Positions 5,406 through 26,390 of a stretch of DNA of 27,743 nucleotides are shown piece by piece (positions within the stretch are counted from its first letter, which is position 1; the number at the start of each line of letters is the position of its first letter). Below the pieces are notes generated by a model. That model ran no database searches. It was not told where the DNA came from and saw nothing but the letters and a program-made list of their open reading frames with translations. The position numbers were made by a program, and so were the translations under genes. Source of the stretch: a virus; the IMG/VR virus record IMGVR_UViG_3300017751_000161, positions 1 through 27,743 of that record; one strand, 5' to 3'.

Positions 5406-7175
5406 TTATCCCTCACACGCTAGACATTCATTTTCATCAATACTGTCTAGAACATACTGTCTCAAGGCTTGCTCTGACACATTATCTGCTCTTTTCACTG
5501 CCTCACTACGGAGATAGTATAAAGTTTTTACCCCCTTCTTCCAAGCACTCATATGAATGGCATGTAGCTCTTGCTTTGATACATTGCCGGGAAAAAACAC
5601 ATTCAAAGACTGGCTCTGACATATGTACTGTTGACGATCTGCGGCATGTTGTATAACCCATTTCTGGTCTATTTCTACACCCGTTTTAAATACGTCTTTA
5701 GTATGTTGATCTAAAAAGTCTAGATGCTGCACGCTTCCGCCGCTTGTCATTATACTAGACCAAACTTCTTCTGTGTCCATTTCTATTTCTTGAAGAGCGT
5801 GTTCCAAATACTCGTTTTTAAGCAGACTAGATCCTGACTTAGTTTTTTGAGTAAATGCATTAGCGCGATAAGGCTCGATGCTAGGGCTAGTGTTACCACA
5901 AATAATACTGCTACTGGCATTAGGAGCAACGGCCAACAAATGGGCATTACGTACTCCATAACCTTTTGCGTCTGGGCATTCTCCTCTTTCTTCTGCGAGT
6001 TGTTTCGTTGCACGTACTGCCTCCGATTTTATTCTTTTAAACATTGTGTGATTTGAGCTTGCTGCCCACATACTTTCAAAGGGAATATCCTGTCTCTGTA
6101 AATAAGCATGGAAGCCCATTGCACCTAAACCGATACTTCTTTCACGTTCTGCACTTAACTTTGCTCGGTAAAGCTCATCAGGTGCGTTATCAATAAAGTA
6201 AGTTAAAACATTATCTAACATTCGTACTAAATCAGGAATGAATTGATCGTTGTCGCACCATTCGTCGTACTCTTCAAGGTTGACGCTCGACAGGCAACAA
6301 ACTGCAGTACGTTCTGCACTTGTCGCAAGTGTTATCTCAGAGCATAAATTTGAGTGATGTACCTGTAGACCTAAGTCTTTCTGAAATTGGGGTAAAGCGT
6401 CCTGAACCGTATCCTTAAACATAATGTAAGGTTCCCCAGTTTCAACACGGTTTTGGATAAGTTTAACCCAAAGTGTTTTCGCTGATACAGTTTTCGTAAC
6501 TTTACCACTATGAGGGTCTACTAGATCCCAGGAATCGTCGAAGCCCTCTATAAGAGTGGCTTGTTCGATTATTCTCATAAAGTCATCGCCAACCACAACA
6601 CCATGATGAACATTAACAGATTTTCTATTAACATCGCCTCCAGTTGGTTTACGAACATCCAAAAACTCCTCAATCTCTGGGTGATTGACTTCCAAATAAC
6701 CTGCATAACTACCTCTTCTTGTGACACCTTGTGAAAAAGCCAACATCTCTGCGTCAACTACTTTAATAAATGGAATTACTCCAGTACTCTCTGACCCCGC
6801 AGAGGTTTTAGATCCAACACTACGTACTTCACTCCAAGAACCGCCTATGCCGCCGCCAACAGAAGAAAGAAACGCATTCTCTGTATAATGACCTGTAAGA
6901 CCTTGTCTGCTATCCTCTACAAAGTTTAAAAAACAGCTAATAGGTAAACCACGCTTACTACCGCCGTTGCTAAGAACTGGAGTAGAAAACATAAACCAAA
7001 GTTTACTAGCATAGTCATACAGTCTTTGTGCGTGTGCATCGTCGTCTGAAAAGGCTATAGCAGCCCTAGCAAACGCATCTTGAGGAGAAGTTTCTCCTTC
7101 TAGTAAGTATCTATCCTCTAGAGTTTTTATGCTAAACTCTGAAAGGTACTTGTCTCTATTATAATTAATCTTCAT
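5406..7175 (-). CDS. nrdA: Class I ribonucleotide reductase, large (catalytic) subunit
   Basis: A 589-residue R1 protein that converts ribonucleotides to deoxyribonucleotides. The radical/catalytic motif N276-L-C278-S-E280 is intact. The redox pair is C81 (PISCFLNF) and C294 (CCLSSVNL), and the C-terminal shuttle cysteines are C584 and C587 (CLACEG). The PNASSSIICG loop is also present. It is short compared with bacterial NrdA and has no N-terminal ATP-cone, so the classical overall activity control by dATP is probably missing. AAGGAAAA precedes the start, which overlaps the stop of the 5' nuclease gene by 11 bp. Confidence 0.97.
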   Translation of the reverse strand: MKINYNRDKYLSEFSIKTLEDRYLLEGETSPQDAFARAAIAFSDDDAHAQRLYDYASKLWFMFSTPVLSNGGSKRGLPISCFLNFVEDSRQGLTGHYTENAFLSSVGGGIGGSWSEVRSVGSKTSAGSESTGVIPFIKVVDAEMLAFSQGVTRRGSYAGYLEVNHPEIEEFLDVRKPTGGDVNRKSVNVHHGVVVGDDFMRIIEQATLIEGFDDSWDLVDPHSGKVTKTVSAKTLWVKLIQNRVETGEPYIMFKDTVQDALPQFQKDLGLQVHHSNLCSEITLATSAERTAVCCLSSVNLEEYDEWCDNDQFIPDLVRMLDNVLTYFIDNAPDELYRAKLSAERERSIGLGAMGFHAYLQRQDIPFESMWAASSNHTMFKRIKSEAVRATKQLAEERGECPDAKGYGVRNAHLLAVAPNASSSIICGNTSPSIEPYRANAFTQKTKSGSSLLKNEYLEHALQEIEMDTEEVWSSIMTSGGSVQHLDFLDQHTKDVFKTGVEIDQKWVIQHAADRQQYICQSQSLNVFFPGNVSKQELHAIHMSAWKKGVKTLYYLRSEAVKRADNVSEQALRQYVLDSIDENECLACEG

Positions 7176-8035: not shown

Positions 8036-8494
8036 CTATTTCTTAGTAATTGTCGTCTCATGGATAAAGTGTATCTCCTCCTGTGTCAGCCAATCCTCGG
8101 CTAACATAACGTAGCACCCCAGCCAACTAACATGGATATATTTAGTATGTTTAGGCAGCTCATCTACTACTACAAAGACCTTTGACCTATTATACTTAAA
8201 AAATAGCATAGGCTCTTGTTCTCCACCTTGTGCTTGCTGTACTACTTTTTTCCACCAACGAATAAGATTATTAGTCTTCTCTTGTGTAAACAGTTTATCT
8301 GTTAAAGGAGATTCTGCATAGTTTTTTACTTCTATACAATACTTATTTGCCTCTCTGGGAACATATAGATCCCCTTTTAAGTACTCTAAAGCTCCTGAGG
8401 CAGGCACCCTTTCAAACTTATGCCCCGTATGTTCTCGTAACATGTCTCGTACTAAGTATTCGCCTCTTGCACCTTTTGCTCTTGAATCTACCAT
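8036..8494 (-). CDS. PD-(D/E)XK nuclease, Holliday-junction-resolvase (Hjc)-like
   Basis: A 152-residue protein with the core of the Hjc/RecB-like nuclease fold: E12 in GARGEYLV, a serine/glycine stretch with D42 (LKGDLYV), then E55-V-K57 (CIEVKNY). This E...D...ExK arrangement is the expected metal and catalytic set. The family cuts branched DNA, and the neighbours (SbcC, SbcD, 5' nuclease) fit junction resolution or DNA-end processing. Its ATG overlaps the sbcC stop by 7 bp. A different substrate, such as single-stranded ends, cannot be excluded from sequence. Confidence 0.8.
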   Translation of the reverse strand: MVDSRAKGARGEYLVRDMLREHTGHKFERVPASGALEYLKGDLYVPREANKYCIEVKNYAESPLTDKLFTQEKTNNLIRWWKKVVQQAQGGEQEPMLFFKYNRSKVFVVVDELPKHTKYIHVSWLGCYVMLAEDWLTQEEIHFIHETTITKK

Positions 8495-12256: not shown

Positions 12257-12285
12257 ATTATACCAAAAAATTAAGGGATTGTCAA
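12257..12285 (-). promoter_or_regulatory. Near-perfect sigma70 promoter (A)
   Basis: On the minus strand TTGACA (12285-12280), a 17-nt spacer and TATAAT (12262-12257), both exact consensus. The -35 is preceded by AAATAGTTC and the spacer carries CCTTA, as in four other promoters here. It starts a few nt after the helicase stop. Predicted initiation near 12250 would serve the SSB-sbcDC-nuclease-nrd block. Confidence 0.9.
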
Positions 12286-12298
12286 GAACTATTTTTCT

Positions 12299-19973: not shown

Positions 19974-20002
19974 ATTATATCAAAATCATAAGGAAATGTC
20001 AA
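19974..20002 (-). promoter_or_regulatory. Near-perfect sigma70 promoter (B)
   Basis: TTGACA (20002-19997), 17-nt spacer, TATAAT (19979-19974) on the minus strand, exact consensus. The -35 is preceded by AAATAGTTC and the spacer has CCTTA. The short leader ATCTTTTCAAAATTAAGGA recurs behind promoter C. It lies directly after the helicase stop and drives the small-gene/primase/polA run. Confidence 0.93.
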
Positions 20003-20014
20003 GAACTATTTCTA

Positions 20015-21364
20015 TTAGATGTCGTCTATGGGTTCGTCTGAACGATTTTCAGCATCCGCTTTCTCGTTAGGCGTAAGAGTAGACTCAGGACCTATCTTCA
20101 AGGTCTCCCAGCACATTTTAGACGAAAAGGACTTCATGGATGCGGAGCGCATCTTCACACAGTTCAATGTCATACAGTTATCTTCCTGCTCCCAAGTTTC
20201 TATCGAATACGCAGCATCTGCCGCATCTAGGATGCCTTTTGCAAAACGGGCTTCGCCACTTGCATCAGTTTGGTAAGGTGAGAATACTGGTACTTCAAAT
20301 TCTTGTGCCATAGCTTTCAAGGCTTTACTAACTTCGATTTGCTCCGTCCAATCATATTGACCGCCACGTGAGGGTAGACTGGAACGCTTTACTTGGTTGA
20401 TATAATCGACAATCACCACACCTACATCTAGAGTTTTAACCTTCTTATCAAGTTCTGCTCTGATCTTAGATAGTGTTAGAGAGGGGTCATAAACTACATC
20501 CAGCTGTTGAGTCGGGAGGAGCTCACAGGTGGTAGTAAGTTCATGATGAAACCTATCAAAATCACGATTTTCTCTATACTCTTTCAAACGTTCCTGTCCT
20601 TTCTCAAAACGAGCTGCCCACCATGAAGCTACTTTCTCCCACTCAGGCATACTAAGATTCTTAGTGCGTAAGCGGGCAAAAGGTATCTCCGTAGCGATAG
20701 CGCAGCATCTTTGCAGAATAGATCTGCTATCCATCTCAATAGTGAAATAAACAGCAGTCTTTCCTGATTTGAATACGTTATTCGCGACATTAGAACAGAT
20801 AACGGACTTACCTGCCCCTCGTTTACCACCCACTAAGATTAGATCTCGTGGGGAGAATTTGATCTCATGATCGTATTCAGTATTAAGGCCGAGGGGTAGA
20901 TAATTACCAATATCTTCATCATCCTCAAACAAGGTAATACGTTGCATACTATCTTGCGGTCGTTCTAGGTCTACTTTTTCTTCGACATCTAGTACGATCT
21001 GATGGAGATGATTTACTGATTCTTCTGCATCTTCAAAAGCTACAGAATTCTCAACATAGTCCTCAAGTGAGTTCAAGATCTCTTTCTGGGCGTACTCATT
21101 CTTGAGATACTCCAAAAGCATGAAGGCATCTGCATCCACCTCAACGGCTTCAATTGCATACAACTTCTCTCGAACCCCGCTATCACGGATTTCAAACTTG
21201 AGGTCGTCAAATGTAGGCATTTTGTGATATTTTTCACAATGATGATCTATGATTCCATACAGAGAATGATACTCCGTTGGTAGATAATTCTTGCGACAGC
21301 TAGTCCAGGTCTCGAAGTCCTGTAGCTCAAGCACTTGCTTTATAAGAGCACTAGCAATATTCAA
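20015..21364 (-). CDS. Replicative DNA helicase, DnaB/T4 gp41 type
   Basis: A 449-residue hexameric-type helicase. The RecA-like core has Walker A GGKRGAGKS (K186) and Walker B VVIVDYINQ (D320), with TIEMDSRSIL after Walker A and an FSPYQTD stretch where DnaB has its Q-motif. The N-terminal ~160 residues would form the primase-interaction domain, and the C-terminus is acidic. The start is TTG at 21364: the codon before it is a TGA stop and GGGAG lies about 8 nt upstream, so no longer form is possible. It follows the terminator of the HTH-repeat gene and no clear promoter is visible in the gap. Confidence 0.93.
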   Translation of the reverse strand: MNIASALIKQVLELQDFETWTSCRKNYLPTEYHSLYGIIDHHCEKYHKMPTFDDLKFEIRDSGVREKLYAIEAVEVDADAFMLLEYLKNEYAQKEILNSLEDYVENSVAFEDAEESVNHLHQIVLDVEEKVDLERPQDSMQRITLFEDDEDIGNYLPLGLNTEYDHEIKFSPRDLILVGGKRGAGKSVICSNVANNVFKSGKTAVYFTIEMDSRSILQRCCAIATEIPFARLRTKNLSMPEWEKVASWWAARFEKGQERLKEYRENRDFDRFHHELTTTCELLPTQQLDVVYDPSLTLSKIRAELDKKVKTLDVGVVIVDYINQVKRSSLPSRGGQYDWTEQIEVSKALKAMAQEFEVPVFSPYQTDASGEARFAKGILDAADAAYSIETWEQEDNCMTLNCVKMRSASMKSFSSKMCWETLKIGPESTLTPNEKADAENRSDEPIDDI

Positions 21365-21390: not shown

Positions 21391-21421
21391 AAAAAAGCCC
21401 CTGGAACTGGCCCAGAGGCTT
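21391..21421 (-). terminator. Intrinsic terminator after the HTH-repeat gene
   Basis: Reading the minus strand, AAGCCTCTGG pairs with CCAGGGGCTT around GCCAGTT, followed by a T run. One G-T wobble is tolerated. It lies about 20 nt after the stop of the gene at 21441-22166 and should end the ligase C-terminal/HTH transcript, separating it from the helicase gene. Confidence 0.9.
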
Positions 21422-21440: not shown

Positions 21441-22166
21441 TTAAGCAGATGCTTTTTCTTTCTTTGAAGCACCATCGTAGTCGGCAGCAACCAAACCACG
21501 ACGAGTAAGCATAGTTTTAACACCACGAGCAGTCTTGTCGATCGCTTCTGCGATTTGCTCAACAGTCATGCCAGCAACGTCACCAAGATCAGCTAAAGGA
21601 TCAGCTTTAGCTGCGCCTTTAGTTTCTTTTTGCTTAGGAATTGCAGAAATCAACTCACCGCGTAATAAGCTAAGAGCTTTACCACGAACACTGTTTACAG
21701 ATTTGCCTAAGGCTTCTGCGATTTCTTCAACGAAAGAGCCACTATTTACTAGGTCAACAAAGATTACTTCTTCAGCTTCAGTATAAGTTTTAACACTTTC
21801 TGGCTTAGGAGCAGCTTTAACGTGAGCAGTTAATTCCATAGATAAGATTTTACCTTGGATTGATTTTGGTGAGAATGCACCATCTTCAAAGTGACCAGCG
21901 ATATCAGCATAAGTGTACTGACCGCTGTTATCAGAAACAAAAGAGGCTAAAGTAGCTTCTTGAGCGTCTGAAAACGCACGAGTGGCTGATGCAGAAGCTA
22001 GTTCTACGTCAAAGCCCATTTTGCGAAGTTTGCTAGAAACTGAACGAGTCGAAGTTTCTAAGTTGTCTGCTGCGTCTGCAACAGTTGATTGAGATACAGG
22101 AGACTCATTTCCTACGAAAGAAGTAAGTTCTGCTGTACGCTCGTCTGTCCATTTTGGTAATGCCAT
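21441..22166 (-). CDS. Four-module HTH DNA-binding protein
   Basis: A 241-residue, Ala- and Ser-rich protein built from four related helix-turn-helix-like modules. They start at WTDERTAEL, FSDAQEATL, YTEAEEVIF and MTVEQIAEA, and each ends in a recognition-helix-like stretch: TRSVSSKLRKMGF, PKSIQGKILSMEL, VNSVRGKALSLL, ARGVKTMLTRRGL. The last ~15 residues are charged. The WTDE opening and SVR-L-GV pattern recur in the gene at 25189-25629, so the two are probably paralogues or share a domain. It follows the ligase C-terminal gene by 4 nt and has its own strong terminator. No catalytic motif is visible. Likely roles are genome coating or transcription control; this is inference. Confidence 0.75.
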   Translation of the reverse strand: MALPKWTDERTAELTSFVGNESPVSQSTVADAADNLETSTRSVSSKLRKMGFDVELASASATRAFSDAQEATLASFVSDNSGQYTYADIAGHFEDGAFSPKSIQGKILSMELTAHVKAAPKPESVKTYTEAEEVIFVDLVNSGSFVEEIAEALGKSVNSVRGKALSLLRGELISAIPKQKETKGAAKADPLADLGDVAGMTVEQIAEAIDKTARGVKTMLTRRGLVAADYDGASKKEKASA

Positions 22167-22170
22167 GTGT

Positions 22171-22920
22171 TTATATCTCCAAGAATTGTTGTAGGTTAGT
22201 TATAATTTGTATGCCAGCGTCTCTGGCTTTTTGTGTTTTTGCGGACTCTATACCACTCTCATTAACTAGAATGGTAACGTCTCGTGTCAAAGAAGCCTTA
22301 ATTGCGTAACCGTTCTGTTGTAGTATCTCGGAGGCTTCAGCTTTAGTTTTATAAGATTTTAACTTGCCTGAGATACATACTACGCCTTTCTGGGCTAGTA
22401 CAACTTGTGGTTTCTCGAACTTGAAAGAGAATGGGTGATCCAATAGGTCAATGCCGTTCTCGCTCAGGTATGAAAGTAGATTATCTGTTGCCTTGGGGCC
22501 TAGACCCGCTGACGCACAGGTACCTGGATTAATATCGTGTACTGTATCGCACACAGTTGCTAATTTTTTAGCTGCTGTGTTGCCGATCAAAGGAATACTA
22601 AGTGCAGGAATAACTACATTCATAGGTACACTCTTAGATACTTGTAACTCTGCAAAAAGCTTTGCACCTATCTTCTCAGATTCTAGGAGAGACACTAAGT
22701 CATCTTTAGTTAGCAAGTACAACTCTTGTGAAGTTGTGACCCCTAATTTCTCGATAGCTTTTGGTCCAAGCCCTTTGATTTTGAGGGTCTTTGCAAAGTG
22801 TTCTAGCTTTTTGTGAATTTTTGTACCGCAAGATGTGTTTTTGCAAAACAAAAGATTATTTATGACTACGATCAGCGAGTTGCACGAAGGGCAACTTGTT
22901 GGTGGTTCAATGTATGTCAT
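22171..22920 (-). CDS. NAD-dependent DNA ligase, C-terminal part (Zn, HhH, BRCT)
   Basis: A 249-residue protein equal to the C-terminal half of LigA. It has a four-cysteine zinc finger (CPSC...CKNTSC), a helix-hairpin-helix region (IKGLGPKAIEKLG, then a second GLGPKATD) and a BRCT domain from about residue 180 (VVCISGKLKSYKTKAEASEILQQ...IIT). It has no adenylation residues, which lie in the separate gene at 23509-24435. The halves would need to associate to form a working enzyme. It has its own promoter (C) and is followed closely by the HTH-repeat gene. Phage T5 also has its NAD ligase in two genes, from memory. Confidence 0.92.
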   Translation of the reverse strand: MTYIEPPTSCPSCNSLIVVINNLLFCKNTSCGTKIHKKLEHFAKTLKIKGLGPKAIEKLGVTTSQELYLLTKDDLVSLLESEKIGAKLFAELQVSKSVPMNVVIPALSIPLIGNTAAKKLATVCDTVHDINPGTCASAGLGPKATDNLLSYLSENGIDLLDHPFSFKFEKPQVVLAQKGVVCISGKLKSYKTKAEASEILQQNGYAIKASLTRDVTILVNESGIESAKTQKARDAGIQIITNLQQFLEI

Positions 22921-22946: not shown

Positions 22947-22975
22947 ATTATAAGTTGTTTTAAGGTAAAAGTCAA
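22947..22975 (-). promoter_or_regulatory. Near-consensus sigma70 promoter (C)
   Basis: TTGACT (22975-22970), 17-nt spacer, TATAAT (22952-22947) on the minus strand, one mismatch from consensus. The spacer has ACCTTA and the leader begins ATCTTTTCAAAATTAAGGA, the same as behind promoter B. It drives the ligase C-terminal gene and the HTH-repeat gene up to the terminator at 21391-21421. Confidence 0.92.
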
Positions 22976-22993
22976 GAGTTATTTTTTCTTTGT

Positions 22994-23512
22994 TTACCAT
23001 AAGTTGACTTGCAGCCCACATCTAGTACCAGAAAAAATCTTAGATACTCTATGGAATTTTATAGGGTTAAACACTACCAATCTATTCTCTTTGGGCTGTA
23101 TACGCTCGTAGCTACCTGCGAAGTCGTTGTGATCTATCTCTAAATAACCTCCGACCAAATCTACAACTTTCCCGTACCATATAATACCTAGCAGGGGGTG
23201 TACTGTTTCTCCTACACTCTCTAGTAGTACTTCGTCTTTGTCTTGATGCCAGTCTAGTGGTTTAGATTTTGATAAATGATTTGCCCAATACTCTATTTTG
23301 GAGTAGTTGTAACTAGATAAGTTTAAGTACGTGTCACGAGTTAGGTATTGTATAAGCTCTTCAAAAATACTTTCTACAGAATTATCATTGTAAAACAATG
23401 TTTCTTTGTCATAGTTAAGATTGTTTTGCTTATCGTATGTATGCCATGAATCTTCGCACTCAAACTTACTTAACAAGTCTAAGTCTTTCAAATAATTATC
23501 AATGACAATCAT
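22994..23512 (-). CDS. 2-oxoglutarate/Fe(II)-dependent oxygenase (prolyl-hydroxylase-like)
   Basis: A 172-residue protein with the Fe(II) facial triad in order: H89-x-D91 (LDWHQDKDE) and H154 (IKFHRV), plus R164 for the 2OG carboxylate (SGTRCGLQVNLW) and the GGYLEI strand between. Small oxygenases of this kind occur in cyanophages and other marine phages; targets are mostly unknown (proteins, small molecules or nucleic acid). Its ATG overlaps the stop of the ligase N-terminal gene (ATGA), so it is translated with that gene. Whether this links it to DNA joining or only to a shared transcript is unknown. Confidence 0.85.
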   Translation of the reverse strand: MIVIDNYLKDLDLLSKFECEDSWHTYDKQNNLNYDKETLFYNDNSVESIFEELIQYLTRDTYLNLSSYNYSKIEYWANHLSKSKPLDWHQDKDEVLLESVGETVHPLLGIIWYGKVVDLVGGYLEIDHNDFAGSYERIQPKENRLVVFNPIKFHRVSKIFSGTRCGLQVNLW

Positions 23513-24465: not shown

Positions 24466-24494
24466 ATTATACTTAAAAAATAAGGAAAAGTCAA
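24466..24494 (-). promoter_or_regulatory. Near-consensus sigma70 promoter (D)
   Basis: TTGACT (24494-24489), 17-nt spacer with CCTTA, TATAAT (24471-24466) on the minus strand. The AAATAGTTC flank supplies the TAG stop of the preceding PC4-like gene, so promoter and coding sequence overlap by a codon. It drives the ligase N-terminal gene and the oxygenase. Confidence 0.92.
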
Positions 24495-24497
24495 GAA

Positions 24498-24797
24498 CTA
24501 TTTATACATATCTTCTAGCAAATCGCCAAAGTATTCTATGATAACTTCCTTTGATTCAGCTAAGGAGAGTATCTCTGTAAGACCTATAAAGAGCTCTCTA
24601 GAGTTTATAAAGTCTATAGGCATAGTTATTCCCTCTTTAGAGGGTTTCCATTCCTCTTCAAAGTCCATATAGTATTTTCTCAAACTAAGGTATTCTATTC
24701 CACGAAAAGTACTTACAGTCAGCCTGACTTGTGTTTGCTTAACAGCATCAAGGTGTATGATTCTTTCATACATTTCGGGGGCTTCATGAAGTTCCAT
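24498..24797 (-). CDS. PC4/p15-like single-stranded-DNA-binding protein
   Basis: A 99-residue protein whose middle matches the PC4 (transcriptional coactivator p15) fold: RLTVSTFRG, LSLRKYYMD, EWKPSKEGITMPIDF. The family pattern is V-D-x-R-x-YY...E-W-K-P-x-K-K-G-I-x-L. PC4-like proteins bind single-stranded DNA and melted promoters; phage T5 has a related small protein, from memory. A role in phage transcription or replication fits but is inference. It starts one base after the preceding stop, with GAGAAG upstream. Its stop is inside promoter D. Confidence 0.82.
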   Translation of the reverse strand: MELHEAPEMYERIIHLDAVKQTQVRLTVSTFRGIEYLSLRKYYMDFEEEWKPSKEGITMPIDFINSRELFIGLTEILSLAESKEVIIEYFGDLLEDMYK

Positions 24798-25188: not shown

Positions 25189-25629
25189 TTAGTCGGCATT
25201 CGCTGTTAATACTTTTGTGAAGTACTGAGCGGCTTTACCAGTCAATTTACTTACTACGTCTTCGTCTACTTCCTGTCCAGCATCAGTGATGGCGGCAGTA
25301 AGAGCGTCTTGAGCAGCTTGCTTAGAAACACGAGTGCCTCCAGTGGAAGCGCCACCTGATGCTTTTGCAGCAGGAGTTTTCTTGACATAGACACCAGCTT
25401 TAGTAAGAATCATACGGACACCATTAGGTGACTCACCAAGATCATCGGCGATTTCTTTTACGATTTCCATGCTAGTTTCTGGGGTAGGGTTGGCAGCTTC
25501 GTATAGCTCTACTGCTTCAGCTTTAGATTCATCAGTCCAAGGCATTTTTCTGTTCCTTTTATTTGGGTTATTGTAGCCCGGGCAAGTACCCAGACGGTTA
25601 AGTTGTTGGTTGTAAAATCGGTCTCCCAA
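25189..25629 (-). CDS. Short HTH DNA-binding protein, Ala-rich
   Basis: A module WTDESKAEAVELY...IVKEIADDLGESPNGVRMILTKAGVYVKK resembles the modules of the gene at 21441-22166. An Ala/Gly/Thr-rich linker and a C-terminal helical part (SKLTGKAAQYFTKVL) follow. Two starts are credible. TTG at 25629 has AAAGGAAA upstream and gives a 146-residue protein with the lead peptide MGDRFYNQQLNRLGTCPGYN, which looks conserved in memory of similar phage proteins. ATG at 25545 also has AAAGGAAC and gives 118 residues from MPWTDES. Promoter E and a terminator bracket the gene, suggesting high expression. Function is unknown; DNA binding is inferred. Confidence 0.75.
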   Translation of the reverse strand: MGDRFYNQQLNRLGTCPGYNNPNKRNRKMPWTDESKAEAVELYEAANPTPETSMEIVKEIADDLGESPNGVRMILTKAGVYVKKTPAAKASGGASTGGTRVSKQAAQDALTAAITDAGQEVDEDVVSKLTGKAAQYFTKVLTANAD

Positions 25630-25661: not shown

Positions 25662-25691
25662 ATTATAGTTGAATTTTAAGGTATTTGTCAA
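25662..25691 (-). promoter_or_regulatory. Near-perfect sigma70 promoter (E)
   Basis: TTGACA (25691-25686), 18-nt spacer with ACCTTA, TATAAT (25667-25662) on the minus strand. The leader ATCATTTCAAAATT is one base different from those behind B and C. It lies about 10 nt after the stop of the HTH gene upstream and drives the short HTH gene. Confidence 0.92.
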
Positions 25692-25700
25692 GAAGTTTTT

Positions 25701-26390
25701 TTAAATTGTTGCAAGGTTTACGCCATACTTCTCAAGATGAATTAGCTTACCTAAATCCTGTGCAAGATCAAAAGCAAAAAATCCTTGCGGGTTTCCCATA
25801 TCGTCTGTACACTCACGTACTGAGGTAGCATAACACTTAGACCCATACTTCTTTTCATAGTCGATACCATCAACTAGACCTTTCTTAGTGAGTGCGTACT
25901 CAGGGCTTAGCTCGTGCTGTATCTCTACAATAGCATGGTATCGGGCAGACCAAGCAAGCTCACCAGGAGCAAACTCTTCTGCTACACAAGTCTCAGGTAG
26001 ATACGATACATTCATACGCTCCTCTACTGAAGAAGGTTTGGTAGGTACTCCTAGTCTTTCTAGTATAGATTTCACAAACCCCGCAGAGCGGTATAAGCTC
26101 TGTGCAATATCTGTGATAGTGCTACCTTTCAGGTACATAGTAGCAGCTTCTTTAATCTCATACTCACTAGCGGCTTTACCTTTGTTACGGTTCTTGCGCT
26201 CTGTTTTGTATGCAATGTGCTCTTTATGGTCTGCAATAATTTTTGCAAGGCGTGTAGTGTTGTACGATATATGCAATATACCGCAAGCTTCTTTCTTTGT
26301 AATCGGCTTCTCGCCCTCTAGCAAAGTGATAACGTGTGCTACATTAGTATCACTTAGCTTTTCATGTTCTCGTTTCTTTACTCTAGGCAT
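25701..26390 (-). CDS. HTH-containing phage protein, unknown function
   Basis: A 229-residue protein. Two helix-turn-helix-like stretches are visible: TKKEACGILHISYNTTRLAKII and TITDIAQSLYRSAGFVKSILERLG, joined by a basic linker (KTERKNRNKGK). The C-terminal ~110 residues are a separate, unrecognised domain (LAWSARYHAIVEIQHELS...KCYATSVRECTDD...FFAFDLAQDLGKLIHLEKYG). The ATG at 26390 is preferred over 26426 because GAGG lies upstream and it gives an 8-bp overlap with the small gene before it. Possibly a regulator acting on the promoters downstream, but nothing shown here proves it. Confidence 0.72.
   Translation of the reverse strand: MPRVKKREHEKLSDTNVAHVITLLEGEKPITKKEACGILHISYNTTRLAKIIADHKEHIAYKTERKNRNKGKAASEYEIKEAATMYLKGSTITDIAQSLYRSAGFVKSILERLGVPTKPSSVEERMNVSYLPETCVAEEFAPGELAWSARYHAIVEIQHELSPEYALTKKGLVDGIDYEKKYGSKCYATSVRECTDDMGNPQGFFAFDLAQDLGKLIHLEKYGVNLATI

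Follow-up and report, generated by a model that had tools for sequence, protein, structure and literature searches.

A marine phage orthologue of T5 gpD5 with four predicted HTH-type modules

Results

The gene at 21441-22166 encodes an orthologue of T5 gpD5

We analyzed a viral DNA stretch of 27,743 bases (the window), which is the whole of IMG/VR virus record IMGVR_UViG_3300017751_000161. The open reading frame at 21441-22166 on the minus strand, called as a gene in an earlier note on this DNA, is real, with an ATG start and 241 codons for amino acids. It lies among the following genes and features:

20015-21364, minus strand: DnaB-like replicative helicase (T5 D6), downstream of D5 (phrog_19, E=1.1e-43)
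21391-21420, minus strand: hairpin and T run resembling an intrinsic terminator, after D5 (10-pair stem, 5-base loop, then T-rich DNA)
21441-22166, minus strand: gpD5 orthologue, 241 aa, four predicted HTH-type modules (PHROG_323, AlphaFold2, alignments)
22171-22920, minus strand: NAD-dependent DNA ligase subunit B (ligB), directly upstream of D5 (phrog_3498, E=3.5e-59)
25189-25545, minus strand: D3 orthologue, DNA-binding (phrog_1725, E=2.3e-30 for the longer ORF 25189-25629)
25701-26390, minus strand: D2 orthologue, two predicted HTH modules and then a small beta domain (phrog_3611, E=9.4e-40; AlphaFold2)

In a profile search the best family for the 241-aa protein was PHROG_323, labelled "transcriptional regulator, D5-like" (E=1.6e-42), with a match across nearly the whole protein (residues 2-238 against positions 4-260 of the 319 in the profile). 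A tblastn search (E<=0.01) with this protein hit 898 records in a set of 50,697 from phages, and at least 80% of the query was covered in 895 of these. D5 of Vibrio phage VCPH heads the tblastn matches (49.8% identical), T5 D5 is 44% identical in alignment A1 (below), and close IMG/VR relatives reach 73-91% identity over the best segment (at least 80 loci, among those listed). A search of predicted viral structures had D5 of Vibrio phage vB_ValS_X1 as its first row (E=9.2e-24). The product of 21441-22166 is the counterpart by descent, or orthologue, of T5 gpD5, and the phage is a marine one of T5 type. The protein belongs to a family already known, as a marine relative of T5 D5, and is no new kind of protein.

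According to the T5 record, D5 binds DNA, is required for DNA replication and late transcription, and is involved in shutoff. The earlier note had proposed DNA bridging or coating, or operator binding, and gave neither role as known for the family. That statement fails, since the T5 record gives D5 a DNA-binding role in replication and late transcription, and a retron preprint discussed below also deals with D5. Because the family is known, the interpretation offered in the note has to change.

For comparisons within the family, we started from 216 loci and kept one copy of each distinct protein encoded by a closed D5 frame of 225-290 aa. The resulting set has 107 D5 sequences, of which 97 come from IMG/VR and 10 from named records. 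Alignment A1 holds ten phages, the window and nine named ones that are 36-49% identical to it. Identical or short rows were left out of the first family alignments, as was Aeromonas phage AhSzq-1 (L091), in which the D5 frame at 5992-6729 is annotated as two CDS. The neighboring helicase and primase CDS of AhSzq-1 are short, perhaps from sequencing errors.

D5 is predicted to consist of four HTH-type modules and a conserved tail

We folded the window protein with AlphaFold2 on an alignment of 48 sequences, the window and 47 of the 97 from IMG/VR kept at <93% mutual identity. Four separate small helical modules joined by flexible linkers were predicted (mean pLDDT 88.0, pTM 0.36), each of HTH type, as the note had anticipated from the sequence. 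With a pTM of 0.36, the mutual placement of the modules is not predicted, though the modules themselves are well formed. On the minus strand the parts of the protein are:

21996-22157, minus strand: module 1, residues 4-57, starting P-K-W-T-D-E; helices 8-18, 26-35 and 40-49; recognition helix 40-49, TRSVSSKLRK (AlphaFold2, conservation)
21813-21983, minus strand: module 2, residues 62-118; helices 67-79, 86-96 and 100-109; recognition helix 100-109, PKSIQGKILS (AlphaFold2; hhalign to module 3, 95.2%)
21636-21797, minus strand: module 3, residues 124-177; helices 130-141, 146-153 and 157-169; recognition helix 157-169, VNSVRGKALSLLR (AlphaFold2, VIA)
21600-21635, minus strand: Ala/Lys-rich linker, residues 178-189 (sequence; lowest pLDDT block, 62 over residues 181-190)
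21489-21599, minus strand: module 4, residues 190-226, shorter; short helix 197-199, helices 202-209 and 213-223; recognition helix 213-223, ARGVKTMLTRR (AlphaFold2, hhalign)
21444-21488, minus strand: conserved C-terminal tail, residues 227-241, D-Y-D-G-A, helix 232-240 (AlphaFold2, alignments A1 and A2); D229 and G232 are invariant in both alignments

Four tandem units of similar length had been described. The number holds, but module 4, at about 37 residues, is shorter than the 54-57 of the others. The motif S-x-x-S-V-(R/S)-x-x-L-x-x-x-G, said to end each unit, fits exactly in module 1 only. Module 2 (SPKSIQGKILSME) has neither the V nor the closing G, A replaces the L in module 3 (SVNSVRGKALSLLRG), and module 4 (TARGVKTMLTRRG) starts the motif with T-x-x-G.

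When sub-alignments of the modules were compared by hhalign, five of the six pairs fell at 69.5-95% (modules 1 and 2, 69.5%; 1 and 3, 75.4%; 1 and 4, 88.8%; 2 and 3, 95.2%; 3 and 4, 72.1%), and the sixth, modules 2 and 4, gave 12.1%. As controls, seven modules (four of D5, one of D3 and two of D2) were each compared with 36 segments, taken from neighboring proteins and from D3 and D2 outside their HTHs. All 252 control pairs stayed below 50%, the top one at 44.2%. The D5 modules are thus more alike than chance segments and likely share common descent, with the reservation that the control segments are not HTHs, so a general HTH likeness is not separated from common descent by this comparison.

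The protein is acidic overall (pI 5.07). Over their 44 residues, the four predicted third helices contain 13 K/R and lack D/E altogether; the remaining 197 residues contain 15 K/R and 35 D/E. Of the 43 columns invariant across the ten phages, 18 fall within these helices and 25 in the other 197 residues (Fisher p=5e-5). The AlphaFold2 prediction and these basic, conserved helices favor a protein with four DNA-contacting modules, as the earlier note had suggested.

We also searched for likenesses to known folds. In VIA-align the top row for module 3 was the GcrA DNA-binding domain, at Z 7.3 for 5yiu (48 residues aligned, rmsd 2.7) and Z 7.1 for 5yiv (44 residues, rmsd 1.4); rows for Lrp, DosR and Tn3 resolvase tied with these. 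The W-T-D-E-R start of D5 module 1 presumably resembles the start of GcrA. The Pfam GcrA model scored 15.0 bits in the window protein, below its cut-off of 26.9, and was found at E<=0.01 in only 4 of 48 family members; we therefore rejected the identification of D5 as GcrA. Sigma70_r4_2 reached 33 bits over the whole window protein against a cut-off of 25.7, with its best stretch in module 4, and was found in 47 of the 48 members at E<=0.01. No single stretch of the window protein reached E 0.01 alone with this model. In this profile test no Pfam row for Sigma70_r2 appeared at E<=1, and with that region missing from the Pfam rows identity as a sigma factor was rejected too. Against solved structures, phmmer returned a single weak row, for a chain called CAP REPEAT (E=0.00036); a profile search gave seven rows at E<=1, CAP REPEAT and engrailed homeodomain chains among them; module 1 alone gave no rows. 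Foldseek found nothing in the PDB at E<=0.001. None of the three sequence searches yielded a convincing solved structure of a D5 relative.

ligB and D5 form a conserved unit that ends in a terminator-like hairpin

The genes of the T5 record run D2, D3, ligA, ligB, D5, D6 (DnaB-type), primase, polymerase and D10, interspersed with small genes. The T5 order around D5 recurs in VCPH and, to the extent of their annotation, in nine more phages. Profiles for D2, D3, ligA, ligB, DnaB, primase and polymerase match the window in the T5 order, and ligB-D5-dnaB is common to both. The ligB gene lies immediately upstream of D5 at all 100 testable loci, window included; as a rule the two genes overlap or stand a few bases apart. 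The DnaB-type frame starts within 250 bases of the D5 end at 95 of 106 testable loci, again including the window. Eleven loci have this frame at least 250 bases from the D5 end (L187, L194, L197, L199, L202, L203, L204, L206, L209, L210 and L211). Between ligA and ligB of the window, an ORF at 22994-23512 on the minus strand matches a PHROG labelled DNA endonuclease V (E=2.2e-07).

Of 86 unique regions downstream of D5, that of the window among them, 61 have a terminator-like site at the D5 end, compared with 8 of 1,720 dinucleotide-preserving shuffles and 6 of 1,720 mononucleotide shuffles. By group, it is present in the window (1/1), in 9/9 named phages, and among the IMG/VR records in 36/57 marine, 4/4 T5-like and 11/15 others. 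Identical downstream regions entered the count a single time, and T5 and SP76 therefore share one entry. The site at 21391-21420 is absent from the list given by a consensus terminator scan of the window. The gene had been described as having its own terminator. The terminator is real and conserved, but with ligB directly upstream in 100 of 100 loci it closes a ligB-D5 unit. The two genes are probably co-transcribed.

T5 has a terminator-like hairpin after D5 as well (L085, 8098-8122), which is absent from the annotation of the T5 record and overlaps the annotated D6 start at 8110. Reading L085 8098-8161 by eye, we noticed an in-frame ATG after AAAGGAGA, about 51 bases on, which may be the true start of T5 D6.

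Promoters of the window share a TAnTTC element

Five near-consensus promoters are predicted in the window:

22947-22975 (22947-22981 with TAnTTC), minus strand: promoter of the ligB-D5 unit, TTGACT-N17-TATAAT, spacer with CCTTA
12257-12291, minus strand: promoter at position 12285, spacer with CCTTA
19974-20008, minus strand: promoter at position 20002, spacer with CCTTA
24466-24500, minus strand: promoter at position 24494, spacer with CCTTA
25662-25697, minus strand: promoter at position 25691, spacer with CCTTA

The repeated CCTTA core had been put forward as a candidate set of D5 sites. It is indeed in all five spacers of the window, but it is not conserved. In the marine set (the window and its close IMG/VR relatives), 62 loci have a promoter-like site at the place matching the ligB-D5 promoter, and CCTTA is found in 30 of 203 unique coding-strand promoter-like sites, those of the window included, at a varying distance from the -35 box. 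Four long relatives have it in 3 of their 35 TAnTTC-type promoters. Among unique spacers, CCTTA occurs in 11 of 40 before ligB (0.91 expected from shuffled spacers), 5 of 30 before D3 (0.48), 1 of 4 before ligA (0.07) and 4 of 25 after DnaB (0.47). It is not enriched across the window (48 found, 69.3 expected). CCTTA is therefore commoner than in shuffled spacers of the marine set, yet matching places do not conserve it. The spacers may bear a weak, degenerate signature; the counts of 30/203 and 3/35 led us to reject CCTTA as a conserved operator core, and with it the CCTTA spacers as D5 sites.

An extra element that is strongly conserved in the marine promoters is TAnTTC directly before the -35 box. 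Across 101 unique promoters with a 17-bp spacer, A at -5 and T at -2 are present in all 101, T at -6 and C at -1 in 99, and T at -3 in 91. Three of the five window promoters match TANTTCTTGAC exactly and the other two have one mismatch. The exact pattern TAnTTCTTGACW-N16-18-TATAAT has 7 to 11 copies in each of four near relatives (4/4), where the reversed-pattern control gave 0. It has 7 copies in one of four more distant IMG/VR records and none in the eight named T5-type records, T5 included, for 1 of 12 other records overall. Looser variants are also seen, such as ttcttc ahead of a -35 box of Vibrio phage VCPH or tagttc at certain freshwater loci. TAnTTC with TTGACW and TATAAT is, as judged from these counts, a lineage-restricted promoter class. 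Because the exact pattern is restricted to a lineage (0/8 named phages) and the conserved D5 helices are not, TAnTTC as a D5 site is not supported, and D5 is unlikely to read this element.

D3 and D2 carry modules that resemble those of D5

The N-terminal module of the D3 orthologue resembles D5 module 1 (hhalign, 96.6%) and module 4 (95.5%). For the D2 orthologue AlphaFold2 gave a pLDDT of 89.7 and a pTM of 0.75. The second HTH of D2 resembles D5 module 3 (94.2%) and D3 (94.5%); its first module had low hhalign scores in most pairs. Among 29 D2 members, only two Pfam families were found at E<=0.01, both HTH. Its small beta domain gave rows of Tudor/PWWP/KOW type with Z 6.0 or less, tied with others. 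D2 is labelled "helicase" in PHROGs, and the retron preprint calls it a helicase too (PMC13405049).

Tentatively, and mainly from the hhalign module comparisons, we raise the possibility that the replication block of T5-type phages contains one expanded HTH-module family, to which D5 contributes four modules, D3 one and D2 at least one, acting as a joint multivalent set that would coat phage DNA and hand it over from replication to late transcription. The shared modules of D2, D3 and D5 are mentioned in none of the literature titles and abstract openings covered, nor in the available parts of PMC13405049. Outside that preprint, the same titles and abstract openings do not mention the D5 modules.

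Discussion

The classic paper on T5 D5 is that of McCorquodale and others in J Virol, 1979. To our knowledge, there is still little explanation of how T5 turns on late transcription or of what exactly D5 does in that switch. The module map given here, with four HTH units, basic conserved third helices and a shared tail, makes a role of D5 in the late switch testable.

D5 has appeared in recent work on phage defense. According to a 2026 preprint (PMC13405049), T5 D5 triggers retron-Kva2 and is predicted to contact the stem of the retron-Kva2 msDNA through an HTH. In the same preprint, D5 is reported to be toxic alone and more so with the retron, D2 toxic regardless of it, and D3 not to cause arrest. 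Escaper T5.1 had four changes in D5 (G53D, W74*, V149I and G232D) and one in D2, escaper T5.2 had two changes in D3, and further mutations in polymerase and terminase genes are mentioned for the escapers. In our alignment G53 maps to the third helix of module 1 (window S44), W74 to the start of module 2 (F65), V149 to the first helix of module 3 (V140) and G232 just past the last helix of module 4 (G224). The shared module ties together D5, D3 and D2, three T5 genes studied in the preprint (PMC13405049). In Yersinia phage phiR2-01, D5 is listed among the major virion-associated proteins with an average spectral count >100, and that study reports that, unlike in phiR2-01, D5 was not found in T5 virions (PMC8624392). 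The phiR2-01 signal may be contamination; taken as it stands, the count is a hint of abundance.

We consider it fairly probable (about 0.6) that D5 is a multivalent, low-specificity binder of double-stranded DNA that coats replicating phage DNA and serves replication, late transcription and early shutoff. D5 would probably be an early product, encoded last in a ligB-D5 unit that the conserved terminator closes. Its four related HTH modules on flexible linkers, predicted as three-helix units like those of homeodomains, GcrA and sigma region 4 with the fourth shorter, would each lay a short basic helix against double-stranded DNA, and the four contacts, weak singly, would sum to tight binding of low specificity. 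D5 may in this way coat replicating phage DNA and support replication. The coated DNA may be marked for late transcription and early transcription damped, which would fit the T5 record. By analogy with that record, DNA binding, a need in replication and late transcription and a part in shutoff would apply to the marine protein; multivalent coating as the mechanism, its timing and the co-transcription with ligB are what we infer. Low specificity is suggested by the third helices, which hold 18 of the 43 invariant columns in the ten phages, and by a shared promoter element that differs between phages; the conserved helices could equally mean a conserved specific site. Two points speak against coating or a strict need for D5. 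An acidic protein (pI 5.07) is unusual for a plain coat protein, and a D5 stop (W74*) in a T5 escaper that forms plaques, as described in PMC13405049, sits badly with such a need.

Were D5 a sequence-specific regulator, its modules would read a repeated operator in promoters, the CCTTA spacer or TAnTTC, and shut off early genes. The recorded part of T5 D5 in shutoff would suit this, as would CCTTA in 5/5 window promoters and above its shuffled expectation in the marine set (ligB 11/40 against 0.91; D3 5/30 against 0.48) and a TAnTTC nearly invariant before the -35 box in the 101 unique 17-bp-spacer promoters. We nonetheless find it distinctly unlikely, with CCTTA in 30/203 sites of the marine set and 3/35 in the four genomes at a variable distance from the -35 box, and with an exact TAnTTC pattern found in 4/4 near relatives but 1/12 others and 0/8 named phages, when the helices are conserved in nine named phages. 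A recruiting role, in which D5 mainly brings in the replication proteins whose genes adjoin it (ligase B, DnaB and primase) and contacts DNA incidentally, is highly improbable: the ligB adjacency (100/100 testable loci) and the nearby DnaB-type gene (95/106) would be expected of it, but conservation is concentrated in the basic third helices, as DNA contact would give.

It is also unlikely, in our estimate, that D5 works as a GcrA-like transcription co-factor, with the modules on DNA and another surface on the host RNA polymerase or sigma factor, to switch transcription to late promoters. The recorded requirement of T5 D5 for late transcription and the conserved C-terminal tail outside the modules are both consistent with such a co-factor. 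The module 3 fold search points the same way through its top row (5yiu, Z 7.3), but that row is tied with Lrp, DosR and Tn3 resolvase. Sigma70_r4_2 passes its cut-off over the whole protein (33 against 25.7 bits; 47/48 members at E<=0.01), which also suits a co-factor, but no lone stretch of the window protein passes E 0.01 with it, and Pfam GcrA stays at 15.0 against 26.9 bits (4/48 members at E<=0.01), with no sigma-2-type domain in the Pfam rows. Bridging or coating of DNA, by multivalent contacts of low specificity, is the reading that we prefer.

Comparison with known systems

For sigma-70 region 4, the whole-protein Sigma70_r4_2 score of D5 is above the Pfam cut-off but no lone stretch passes E 0.01, and no sigma region 2 appears in the Pfam rows. 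GcrA of Caulobacter (5yiu/5yiv) is the top fold row for module 3, with a Z tied with those of other HTHs. GcrA differs in having one module against four in D5, and D5 misses the Pfam GcrA cut-off. GcrA recognizes m6A-methylated promoters and has a sigma-interacting domain (PMC7403470); no such domain was recognized in D5. T5 D5 is reported to mimic the winged-helix protein of retron-Kva2, with the same msDNA stem predicted as target (PMC13405049). That protein is a host defense component, unlike D5, and the likeness is by the account of the preprint.

For D3 and D2 of T5, the window orthologues carry modules matching D5 modules by profile (96.6% and 94.2%). Unlike D5, D3 has a single module and D2 a pair, and their C-terminal parts are different. 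The nearest known system is gpD5 of T5 itself. At 255 aa it is longer than the window protein, mostly through an insertion in module 1, and the promoter class around the gene differs between T5 and the window. The two are alike in a near-full-length sequence match, in gene order, in four aligned modules and in a terminator-like hairpin 3' of the gene.
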